The position numbers and the translations under genes are program-made. This document shows, piece after piece, positions 38,047 through 41,591 of a stretch of 56,921 bases of DNA (positions are counted from its first letter, which is position 1; each line of letters opens with the position of its first letter). This stretch comes from Sulfurimonas crateris. GTDB lineage: Bacteria; Campylobacterota; Campylobacteria; Campylobacterales; Sulfurimonadaceae. The notes under the pieces are model-generated. The model was not told the DNA's origin and did no database searches. It was given only the letters and a program-made list of their open reading frames with translations. Location: NCBI GenBank assembly GCA_945883795.1, contig CAMCYC010000010.1, positions 1 to 56,921 on the forward strand. Reading direction: 5' to 3'.

Positions 38047-38700
38047 ATGAAAACATATTATAGCAATAGAGAAAAATGTTATACATGCTATAGACCAAAA
38101 AGTTCTTGTATGTGTAAGCATGTAAACACTTTGGATACAAAAACAAAATTTGTCATTTTGATGCACCCAAAAGAGTTTAAAAAAGTAAAAAATGGAACAG
38201 GACATTTAACCCATTTGGCGCTTAAAAATTCAGAGTTATTTCACGGGATTGATTTTACAAATCATAAAAAGATAAATCATATTATCAATACACATGAAAG
38301 TTTTGTACTCTATCCTTCAAAAGATGCAATTAACCTCAGCAAATCAGACCCAACACCCAATGCTAATAAAAAAATAGCGATATTCATAATAGACTCAACA
38401 TGGGCATGTTCACTTAAAATGTTACGAGAGAGTAAAAACCTTCAAACACTTAAAACGCTTAGTTTTACAAGTTCAAAACTCTCACAATTTAAAATAAAAG
38501 AGCAACCAGCAGAATATTGTCTTTCAACTATTGAATCAACTTTAGAAGTGATACAACTCCTAAAACAATGGAATATGGAGCATTTGGAACAAGAAGATTT
38601 AGATAAATTTTTAAACCCTTTTGAAAAAATGGTGGAATACCAACTTGAGTGTATAGCACAAAATTCAACGCATTCGGTAAGGTTTAAAGAAAGGTATTAA
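38047..38700 (+). CDS. DTW-domain tRNA aminocarboxypropyltransferase
   Basis: A 217-residue DTW-domain protein. An N-terminal Cys cluster (CYTCYRPKSSCMC) would bind zinc; KTKFVILMHPKEFKK and the DSTW motif (variant of D-T-W) near residue 117 follow. This family, TapT/TuaA in E. coli, adds the 3-amino-3-carboxypropyl group of SAM to uridine 47 in tRNA. There is no ribosome site before the ATG, while a TACAAT box ends 7 nt upstream, so the mRNA may be leaderless. It is monocistronic by appearance. Confidence 0.85.
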   Translation: MKTYYSNREKCYTCYRPKSSCMCKHVNTLDTKTKFVILMHPKEFKKVKNGTGHLTHLALKNSELFHGIDFTNHKKINHIINTHESFVLYPSKDAINLSKSDPTPNANKKIAIFIIDSTWACSLKMLRESKNLQTLKTLSFTSSKLSQFKIKEQPAEYCLSTIESTLEVIQLLKQWNMEHLEQEDLDKFLNPFEKMVEYQLECIAQNSTHSVRFKERY

Positions 38701-38704
38701 TTAT

Positions 38705-38727
38705 ACTTTTTACTCTTATTAAAAAGT
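38705..38727 (+). terminator. AT-rich hairpin after the DTW gene
   Basis: ACTTTTTA and TAAAAAGT form perfect 8 bp arms around a 7 nt loop, five bases after the stop. The T-run lies further away (about 38743-38749), so termination is plausible but not certain. Confidence 0.35.
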
Positions 38728-38785
38728 TCATATCTATCCGCTTTTTTTTGTTTTGCAACATACATTAGCGATAATTTTATGTTAA

Positions 38786-38791
38786 TATAAT
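38786..38791 (+). promoter_or_regulatory. -10 box of the acidic-protein gene
   Basis: TATAAT about 58 nt before the ATG at 38850, in an AT-rich leader. Confidence 0.45.
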
Positions 38792-38849
38792 AAAATTTTT
38801 AAACTTTAAATTGATAAAATAAAAGAATATATTTTTAAAGGTGGTCAAA

Positions 38850-38987
38850 ATGTTCGATGATTTTATAGAAGATGATGAAATAGAAGGGGAAGAAGATTGT
38901 AGTCCTTATGATTACAATGATGATTCAGAAGAAGAAGATGATGATGAGGAAGATTTTTATGAATATGAAGATGATGAAGACCAATAA
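38850..38987 (+). CDS. hyperacidic 45-residue protein
   Basis: A complete small gene: AAAGGTGG ribosome site, ATG, and 45 codons ending CAA TAA. The product has 15 Asp and 13 Glu, four Tyr, one Cys and no Lys, Arg or His. It would be highly negative and disordered. Such peptides can mimic DNA or bind basic proteins or metal ions, but no function is known. It lies 82 nt before the FliK-like gene, separated by a small hairpin, and has its own -10 box. The good ribosome site and clean frame make it credible despite low complexity. Confidence 0.65.
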   Translation: MFDDFIEDDEIEGEEDCSPYDYNDDSEEEDDDEEDFYEYEDDEDQ

Positions 38988-38999
38988 TATTTTCTTTTT

Positions 39000-39018
39000 C
39001 AGAAATAGTTTATTTCTG
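39000..39018 (+). other. hairpin between acidic-protein gene and fliK
   Basis: CAGAAAT and ATTTCTG are perfect 7 bp arms around a 5 nt loop, 12 nt after the acidic ORF. No T-run follows, so it may protect or process the transcript rather than terminate it. Confidence 0.35.
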
Positions 39019-39069
39019 TGACAATCAAAATAAGAGTTGGAGTTTTTTGTCTTTTAATCGGAATACAAG

Positions 39070-41340
39070 ATGATTAATTTAACACTCAGTAAACAGCATG
39101 CTATTGTTACTCCAAATATAAATAAAGCATTAGCTGTATTACTAGAACAAGCAACACCTAAAGAACTTGAACTTCTTTCAGAAGGTAAAGATTTAAAATC
39201 GATAATAGATTCTTTACTCAAAGAAAATACTCAAAGTTCTGCTGGGGATAAAACGCTTCTCAATCTTCTCAAAAACAATCCAACGCTCAAAGAGCTTGGG
39301 AATGTTTCTAATACAATCAAGGAGTTACTCACACTCCTCAAATCTGATACAACTGCTTTACCAATTGAAAATATTTTAAAAAAGTTCTTGATTGATATTA
39401 AAGATTTAAGTGAACCGATTTTAAAACAAAAACTTGAAAATTCAGGTATTTTTCTGGAATCAAAACTCAAAAATGTAGAAAATCCCCAAGTAGTTTTGAA
39501 AAACTTACTTCTCTCTTTGGATGCAACAATCAGTAAAAGTGAGCTCAATTCAGTCAAAGAGTTACAATTTAAAATCAAAAATTTATTGGCTACTCCTATA
39601 ATAGAAGAGAGTTCAAATACAGCTCTTTTAGAGTCAGCAAAAGAGAATCCAAAGACCCTTAAAGTTATTGCAAAAAATGTTGAAACCGTTGTATTAAAAC
39701 TACAAGAATACTTAAAATTTGCAGATCCCATGAGTACAAAAAGTGTGAATGTTCAACTCTCAAAACTTGAGCATTTAATAGAACCAAACATACTAACAAC
39801 CGAAAATTTTAAACTCCCCACACTTCAAAAAGTAGTAGAAAAACTACAGACTCAATTAGAACAAAGTTTAAAACCTGAAACAAAAAATCTTCTTGAGAGT
39901 TTACATAAAATCACTGCTTCATTGAGTCAGATTGAGCAAAAAGGCACAACGACACAAGCCACAATAGATACGCTTCAAGAAAAAAAAATTCCTCAAGAGA
40001 TTCGTAATGTCATGGAATCTTTAAAAACTTTGATAGCAAAAGAGGAACATGCAACTTCTAAAACAGTAGAGCCAATAGTATCAAAAACTATCTCTACAGA
40101 ACTTTCTAAACTAGAACAACTTATAACTCCAAAAGCACTTACAACGGAGTCGTTTAAACTTCCAACACTTCAAAAAGTTCTTGAGCAAGTGGCAACACAT
40201 TTGGAGCAAACACCAAAAGTAGAAGTGAAACCTTTGGTTGAAAATTTGAATAAAATCACTGCTTCATTAAAAGAGATTGAACAAAAAAGTACAAAGCCAG
40301 AAACTTTGATAAATTCAATTCAAGAGAAAAAAATACCCCAAGAGATTAAAAATGTCATTACATCTTTAAAAACATTGATAGAAAAAGATACGCAAGTCAG
40401 CGTTAAAATAACAGAGGCAATTTTAAGTAAAACTGCCACACTAGAGATTTCTAAACTTGAACAGCTTATCACTCCAAAAGCACTAACAACAGAATTTCTA
40501 AAACTTCCATTACTTCAAAAAGCAATTGAGCAAGTAGCAACACATTTAGAACAAAGCCAAAAACAAGAGTTCAAACCTTTGTTTGAGAGCTTAAATAAAA
40601 TCAGTACCACACTCACTCAAATTGAGCAAAAAAGTACAACACCACAAACAACTATAGATGCAATTGTTGAGAAAAAAATACCTGAAATGATGAAAGGTGT
40701 GATTGAGTCTTTCAAAACAGTGATAAATAAAGCAGACCCTATTTTTTCTAAAGAGATAGCTACTATTACCAATAAACTTTTAGAGTTTACAAATCCAGAA
40801 AAACTAAGCTCCGATGCAAAGGTAAAAGAGATTCTCTCACAAGATTTTAAGGCAGTTTTATCACAAGCAACTGAAGAAGTGAGCCAATCGAGTCATCCAC
40901 AAAAAGCAGAACTTTTAAAAAATATTGAAAAATTATCACTTCAAATTGATTATTATCAACTTGTTTCCCACCTTTCAAACAATACCTCTATGTATGTTCC
41001 GTTCTCATGGGAACAACTAGAAGATGGAAATGTGAATATCCAAAAAGATAAAGATGAAAAATTTTATTGTGATATAAATTTAAAATTACAAGAGTATGGT
41101 CCACTTCATTTTAGGTTGGTTTTATATGAAAAAAATCAACTCAATATCCATGTCAAATCTAATAATAGCCAACTAAAAGATATGATTAAAGAAAATATTG
41201 GCGTACTTCGGAGCGCACTCATAGATGCACAGATAACACCAAGAGAGATACGATTTTTTGATTTAGAAAGTAAAAATATGAGCTCATCTTATGAAAAAAA
41301 TTATAACGATATTAGTGTTGGATTTGAGGTAAAGGGATGA
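39070..41340 (+). CDS. fliK: flagellar hook-length control protein, FliK-like
   Basis: A 756-residue protein, larger than the roughly 400-600 residues usual for FliK. The C-terminal domain (about 640-735, with EYGPLHFRLVLYEKNQLNIH and SALIDAQI) matches the FliK hook-length domain that switches FlhB from hook to filament export. The middle, residues 231-567, consists of three tandem units starting SKLE-H/Q-L at residues 231, 346 and 461, all helical. The N-terminus is also helical and repetitive. FliK acts as a secreted ruler, so the repeats should set length. It overlaps flhX by 4 nt. The recognition rests on the C-terminal domain and on the flhX neighbour. Confidence 0.8.
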   Translation: MINLTLSKQHAIVTPNINKALAVLLEQATPKELELLSEGKDLKSIIDSLLKENTQSSAGDKTLLNLLKNNPTLKELGNVSNTIKELLTLLKSDTTALPIENILKKFLIDIKDLSEPILKQKLENSGIFLESKLKNVENPQVVLKNLLLSLDATISKSELNSVKELQFKIKNLLATPIIEESSNTALLESAKENPKTLKVIAKNVETVVLKLQEYLKFADPMSTKSVNVQLSKLEHLIEPNILTTENFKLPTLQKVVEKLQTQLEQSLKPETKNLLESLHKITASLSQIEQKGTTTQATIDTLQEKKIPQEIRNVMESLKTLIAKEEHATSKTVEPIVSKTISTELSKLEQLITPKALTTESFKLPTLQKVLEQVATHLEQTPKVEVKPLVENLNKITASLKEIEQKSTKPETLINSIQEKKIPQEIKNVITSLKTLIEKDTQVSVKITEAILSKTATLEISKLEQLITPKALTTEFLKLPLLQKAIEQVATHLEQSQKQEFKPLFESLNKISTTLTQIEQKSTTPQTTIDAIVEKKIPEMMKGVIESFKTVINKADPIFSKEIATITNKLLEFTNPEKLSSDAKVKEILSQDFKAVLSQATEEVSQSSHPQKAELLKNIEKLSLQIDYYQLVSHLSNNTSMYVPFSWEQLEDGNVNIQKDKDEKFYCDINLKLQEYGPLHFRLVLYEKNQLNIHVKSNNSQLKDMIKENIGVLRSALIDAQITPREIRFFDLESKNMSSSYEKNYNDISVGFEVKG
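39760..40770 (+). repeat. in-frame tandem repeats within fliK (345 bp period)
   Basis: Units 39760-40104, 40105-40449 and 40450-40770 encode the same segment order: SKLE-x-LI-x-P, L-T-T-E-x-x-K-L-P-x-L-Q-K, a Leu-Glu-Gln helix, KI-x-x-x-L-x-x-IEQK, EKKIP and a Lys-rich helix. The first two are exactly 115 codons and the third is 107. A fainter fourth start (NKLLEFTNPEKL) follows. Confidence 0.85.
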
Positions 41341-41591
41341 AAAAAGCGGTCGCTCTAAGATACCACACCTCCAAAGATAATGTTCCTCGTGTTGTTGCCA
41401 CTGGCAAAGGTCAAACAGCAGATAACATTATCAAAATAGCCGAACTCCATAAACTTCCTATCAAAAGAGATGCCGACCTTGTGGAGCTTCTCTCCAAAGT
41501 TGAACTTGATAAAGAGGTGCCGACAGCTTTATATAAAGTGGTTGCAGAACTTTTTACTTTTATCTATAAGCTTACAAAAGATAAAAAGTAA
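41337..41591 (+). CDS. flhX: FlhX, stand-alone FlhB C-terminal domain
   Basis: An 84-residue protein equivalent to the cytoplasmic fragment of FlhB/EscU that remains after autocleavage at NPTH. It starts MKKAVALRYHTSKDNVPRV, where full FlhB reads NPTH followed by YAVALKY, and keeps the later segment EVPTALYKVVAELFTFIYKL. FlhX is known to substitute partly for this FlhB fragment in Helicobacter. Its ATG overlaps the fliK stop (ATGA), linking the ruler with a piece of the export switch it talks to. Confidence 0.88.
   Translation: MKKAVALRYHTSKDNVPRVVATGKGQTADNIIKIAELHKLPIKRDADLVELLSKVELDKEVPTALYKVVAELFTFIYKLTKDKK

Follow-up and report, generated by a model that had tools for sequence, protein, structure and literature searches.

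A FliK paralogue paired with flhX and its modular repeat region in Sulfurimonas crateris

We analysed a stretch of 56,921 nucleotides from Sulfurimonas crateris (contig CAMCYC010000010.1), referred to as a whole as the window. Its forward strand holds an open reading frame for a FliK-like protein of 756 amino acids with a Flg_hook domain (39070–41340). The protein starts with a conserved N-terminal domain, defined with a profile built from the genus (residues 1–138; 39070–39483), and continues into a diverged repeat unit, A (residues 140–233; 39487–39768; unit-profile match E = 1e-9). There follow B1 (residues 231–345; 39760–40104; unit-profile match E = 3e-35) and B2 (residues 346–460; 40105–40449), which share a 115-residue period, and B3 (residues 461–567; 40450–40770), which is recovered by repeat searches, the unit profile and clade membership. 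Beyond a weak, partial fourth start (residues 568–624; 40771–40941) lies a Flg_hook domain of the FliK switch type (Pfam PF02120, residues 657–732; 41038–41265). The next gene on the same strand is flhX (41337–41591), whose 84-amino-acid product is a free-standing FlhB C-terminal domain. A scan of positions 38700–39070, just upstream of the FliK-like gene, for a sigma-54-type flagellar promoter gave no match. A very acidic short open reading frame (MFDDFIEDDEIEGEEDC...; 38850–38987, forward strand) sits between an open reading frame at 38047–38700 and the FliK-like gene.

The 115-residue periodicity claimed in an earlier note on this DNA is borne out, as units begin at residues 231, 346 and 461, exactly 115 codons apart. 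A direct-repeat search returned 300-nt copies at three sites, 39714, 40059 and 40404, with spacings of exactly 345 and 345 nt, and Tandem Repeats Finder reported a period of 345 across 39901–40682 (2.3 copies, 74% matches, 0% indels). The protein's self-comparison peaked at lag 115 (score 668) and gave 299 at twice that lag (230), whereas no lag in 20 shuffled controls exceeded 62; the off-diagonal signal of a self dot-plot is present in both protein (lag 115) and DNA (345 nt). Units 231–345, 346–460 and 461 onward are pairwise identical at 68/115, 67/115 and 60/115 positions (52–59%). The third unit runs for 107 residues up to the next start, at residue 568. This weaker fourth start, also proposed in that note, proved marginal: a partial match to the unit profile exists at residues 591–624, but it scores 9.4 bits, 2 of 500 shuffles scored higher, and the region merges into the C-terminal part common to all orthologues. 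Unit A was missing from that note's list. We give virtually no credence to chance similarity or an assembly artefact as the origin of the repeats, given that the lag-115 score stands far above the shuffle maximum and that the same module family is present in relatives. Collapsed or duplicated reads are ruled out as a source because about 40–48% of residues differ between units.

The C-terminal domain is of FliK type, as had been proposed; its Pfam Flg_hook score, 40.1 bits, clears the cut-off of 29.8. Its best PDB profile match is 2rrl, the C-domain of Salmonella FliK, although this match is weak (E = 0.083). The protein is nevertheless not the FliK of this genome. A whole-genome search revealed a second, stronger Flg_hook open reading frame on another contig, C70, within a fliK–flgD–flgE cluster; this is the canonical fliK (L001:1369-2955 on the minus strand of G000:C70, the same as L177:3689-5275). 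For fliK in Campylobacterota, this grouping with flgD and flgE is reported to be ancestral (PMC9321776). Here the fliK–flgDE position is occupied by L177:3689-5275, and the window gene adjoins flhX instead. Outside Flg_hook, the window protein has no similarity to the FliK of the same genome, from which both the N-terminal domain and the unit are absent. Where canonical FliK reads QLNPEQLGDV, the window protein reads KLQEYGPLHF and its relatives KLKEYGELKL. The pattern LxPxxLG, which we take to be the FliK-type switch motif of the T3S4 literature, was not found in the window protein, and since KLQEYGPLHF stands in its place the switch interaction may differ. With a canonical fliK elsewhere, no similarity beyond Flg_hook and a replaced switch motif, the protein is, on sequence comparison, a FliK paralogue and not the genome's FliK. 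The two coexist in one genome and both have a C-terminal Flg_hook and a variable middle between conserved ends; the window gene differs in its flhX locus, its N-terminal domain, its lack of LxPxxLG and its modular folded repeats. The middle region of the canonical FliK has a small perfect tandem repeat of its own, in which AEPISQVGLQTK occurs twice.

The pairing with flhX is tight, with the flhX start overlapping the FliK-like stop codon by 4 nt. The flhX product scores 61.7 bits with Pfam Bac_export_2, over positions 262–335 of 335, and 102.8 bits with TIGR00789. The latter falls below the NCBI curated cut-off of 117.35 bits, a strict threshold that just 43 of 299 genomes in the order reach. 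FlhX is homologous to the cytoplasmic C-terminal domain of FlhB without the membrane part. Its start corresponds exactly to the position following the NPTH autocleavage site in the FlhB of this genome, so that it mimics an FlhB fragment that is already cleaved. Searching the genome found only one FlhB, hence one export apparatus. The 4-nt overlap recurs in 82 of 92 retrieved FliK-like open reading frames (a count that includes two duplicate rows); in 9 flhX lies within 170 nt, and 1 is cut by a contig end. Homologous fliK-like/flhX pairs were found in other families of the order, where the pair is widespread. Furthermore, the genus-built N-domain profile matches flhX-linked proteins in all other families sampled (E from 1e-39 to 6e-6) and gave no match to canonical FliK.

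A second flhX lies elsewhere in the genome, directly downstream of riboflavin synthase (L156, G000:C41:10835-11077, minus strand), an arrangement that matches H. pylori HP1574/HP1575, of which HP1575 is FlhX. None of eight sampled flhX genes of that type sits beside a FliK-like gene; for seven, no FliK-like orthologue was detected anywhere in the genome. In C. jejuni, Cj0848c is flhX (PMC4894983), and a reporter fused to the N-terminal 36 residues of Cj0849c is secreted through the Yersinia flagellar type III secretion system (PMC2764114). Judging from locus-tag adjacency and family context, Cj0849c/Cj0848c appear to be the equivalent pair. The window flhX resembles the known FlhX proteins (Cj0848c, HP1575; TIGR00789) in being a free-standing FlhB C-terminal domain, and differs from them in its 4-nt coupling to a FliK-like gene and in having a second copy in the genome beside riboflavin synthase. 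A Nitratiruptor 'flhX-fliK' pair (PMC9321776) probably represents the same genes; the passages on it say only that it lies apart from the main flagellar cluster, and mention neither repeats nor paralogy to canonical fliK.

Related matches to the FliK-like protein are found in 100 of 135 genomes of the genus, and 84 complete Sulfurimonas orthologues form a ladder of lengths. Median lengths of the classes are 311 (n = 25), 426 (n = 22), 529.5 (n = 28) and 655 residues (n = 8), and the window protein has 756. Periodicity at ~110 residues is pronounced (R = 0.69, versus 0.09 for canonical FliK open frames of the same genus), and the coefficient of variation in length is 0.25 compared with 0.09 for canonical FliK. 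Conserved ends flank 0–4 units of ~100–115 residues each: the unit profile finds none in the ~310 class and one, A, in the ~425 class, while proteins of the ~530 class have A and B and the window protein has A with B1–B3. Proteins with 0 units account for 25 of the 84, and A is found in nearly all orthologues of at least 419 residues. Some proteins of more than 600 residues are long for other reasons, having a second A copy or long linkers. In another Sulfurimonas group (L021, L024, L028, L030), unit A has duplicated independently at a spacing of 136 residues. Sulfurimonas sp. UBA6014 (L033), the nearest relative with a name, gives a full-length alignment broken by a single gap of exactly 230 residues, which equals two units. 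The earlier note had pointed to repeat number in relatives, and between species length does differ in whole-unit steps. A tree built from the conserved ends shows 24 changes of size class, even between close relatives (521 versus 419 residues); this count takes length classes regardless of unit identity, on a tree with open forks. Overall, paralogue length varies about 2.5-fold within one genus. It shows no correlation with canonical FliK length (rho 0.06, n = 69), and we dismissed coupling between the two on this basis. In some genomes with canonical fliK, the paralogue was not detected.

The window's own units point to a long history. B1, B2 and B3 form one clade (support 100/97), placed among the lone B units of relatives with two units, and because they group together, triplication of B in the window lineage is the simplest reading; homogenisation between units is a conceivable alternative. 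Synonymous divergence between units is substantial (dS 0.75–1.1); comparisons of the window with the nearest relatives sequenced give higher values, from dS 1.35 to saturated. Units share no identical stretch of DNA longer than 19 bp, and third-codon identity is 54–60%. For efficient RecA-dependent recombination in E. coli, the minimum usually quoted is longer, at about 25 bp. On this divergence and this short shared tract, the units are old and frequent repeat-number switching today is unlikely. Recombination between 345-bp repeats, which had been put forward as a means of changing length, would be inefficient now that the copies have diverged to this degree. We also dismissed rapid repeat-number switching, as units share at most 19 identical consecutive bases. 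Lastly, a dN/dS of about 0.3 between units suggests constraint, or selection, on the module sequence.

Modelling a single unit with six related sequences gave, with good confidence, a compact five-helix bundle (pLDDT 81, pTM 0.72). AlphaFold2, run on the full protein with only two aligned sequences, gave a poor model (mean pLDDT 53), from which we took the helix pattern alone. Searching the PDB with the unit fold (Foldseek) returned generic four-helix and helical bundles, none of them significant, and we therefore drew no function from these matches. Across other families of the order, the N- and C-terminal domains are common and the Sulfurimonas unit is absent. Three flhX-linked FliK-like proteins from those families (L165, L166, L174) carry unrelated tandem repeats with periods of 124, 61 and 35 residues. 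Because unrelated repeats occur at this position in other families, the middle region seems, throughout the order, to have a tendency to expand through tandem duplication.

Secretion rulers that vary in repeat number have a precedent in YscP: its repeats, 14, 25 and 46 residues long, differ in number from one Yersinia enterocolitica strain to another, and its length dictates needle length (PMC3469391). The window protein is YscP-like in having conserved ends and a repeat number that varies between relatives, so that length is stepwise, and it would belong to the same functional class (PMC3469391). In contrast to the short YscP repeats, its units are whole helical-bundle modules of ~115 residues, and whereas YscP length is known to set needle length, a measuring role for the window protein is hypothetical. 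New, as far as the literature we compared goes, is an FlhX-linked paralogue that evolves by whole folded modules and forms a quantised ladder within one genus.

Beyond the paralogy, the FlhX pairing, the modular length ladder and the triplication of module B in the window lineage, we favour, with reasonable rather than high confidence, an FlhX-coupled FliK paralogue that acts at the flagellar type III export gate and has a modular spacer as its middle. The conserved N-terminal domain probably carries an export signal, and the protein would be exported through the flagellar apparatus. Tandem helical-bundle modules would serve as the spacer, and the FliK-type C-domain probably binds FlhX, the FlhB C-terminal domain or both, as FliK contacts FlhB. 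Total module length may then tune the moment at which the C-domain reaches the gate, with module number changing through infrequent duplications and deletions on an evolutionary timescale and not by rapid phase-type switching. Work in Salmonella has proposed that FliK ejects the cleaved FlhB(CCD) and thereby flips export specificity (PMC13344023); in such a scheme, a FliK paralogue paired with a free FlhB C-domain could be a supply, a competitor or an alternative lock. Fixed ends with a whole-unit middle amount to a ruler architecture, and a passive spacer would fit equally well. A folded module would need unfolding before export, which counts against this model, as do the replaced switch motif and the lack of a sigma-54-type promoter match just upstream of the gene.

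The earlier note took the window protein itself to be the hook-length ruler, with repeat number setting hook length in fixed steps. Salmonella hooks follow the length of their ruler (PMC13344023) as needles follow YscP, and the protein has the Flg_hook domain and the variable middle between conserved ends that such a role would entail. Yet a separate canonical fliK stands beside flgD–flgE in the same genome, and in C. jejuni loss of the canonical gene alone results in polyhooks (PMC5097172), a sign that it is this gene that determines hook length in the phylum. The paralogue's wide length range, untied to FliK length, weakens the claim further, as do genomes that have canonical fliK and no detectable paralogue. 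We consider this reading very improbable. It is less far-fetched, although still unlikely in our estimate, that the paralogue is a second ruler, exported alongside FliK, which measures or fine-tunes the hook, rod or other early structure and switches via FlhX. Its ruler-like architecture, quantised lengths, close coupling to a free FlhB switch domain and the separate origin of repeats in other families would all suit this role. Against it, the genome has a single FlhB and hence a single export apparatus, and a 2.5-fold range with about 24 changes in the genus would make the target lengths very labile. A more specific version is a speculation that we put forward with some reluctance: two rulers at one Campylobacterota gate, with FliK read by FlhB and a stepwise-evolving modular ruler of folded domains read by FlhX.

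Alternatively, the protein might measure nothing and be a cytoplasmic or gate-bound regulator, whose modules provide binding sites or bulk and whose unit number is nearly neutral. Frequent gain and loss of units, even between sister sequences of 521 and 419 residues, would fit such a protein, as would the compact folded bundles predicted for the modules and the retention of proteins with no unit at all. However, the dN/dS between units suggests selection on module sequence, the N-terminus of Cj0849c acts as a flagellar export signal (PMC2764114), and neutral drift of a linker is not expected to proceed in whole units. We regard a purely regulatory role as possible but doubtful, and retain the FlhX-coupled modular spacer at the export gate as our preferred reading.

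How type III secretion rulers measure, and how their lengths evolve, is a long-running question mostly tested with engineered insertions. The natural series of 0–4 modules, arisen through many changes within one genus, offers a way to ask if an exported structure is controlled by the length of the protein, by its number of domains or by neither. The pairing also provides a concrete partner for the little-understood free FlhB C-terminal domain, and does so at a timely moment given the recent proposal that FliK ejects the FlhB C-terminal domain from the gate (PMC13344023). Within the ortholog set, two sequences (L051 from G116 and L085 from G028) have frames that stop early in the C-terminal domain, one of them with an internal TAA, which suggests decaying copies or sequence errors.
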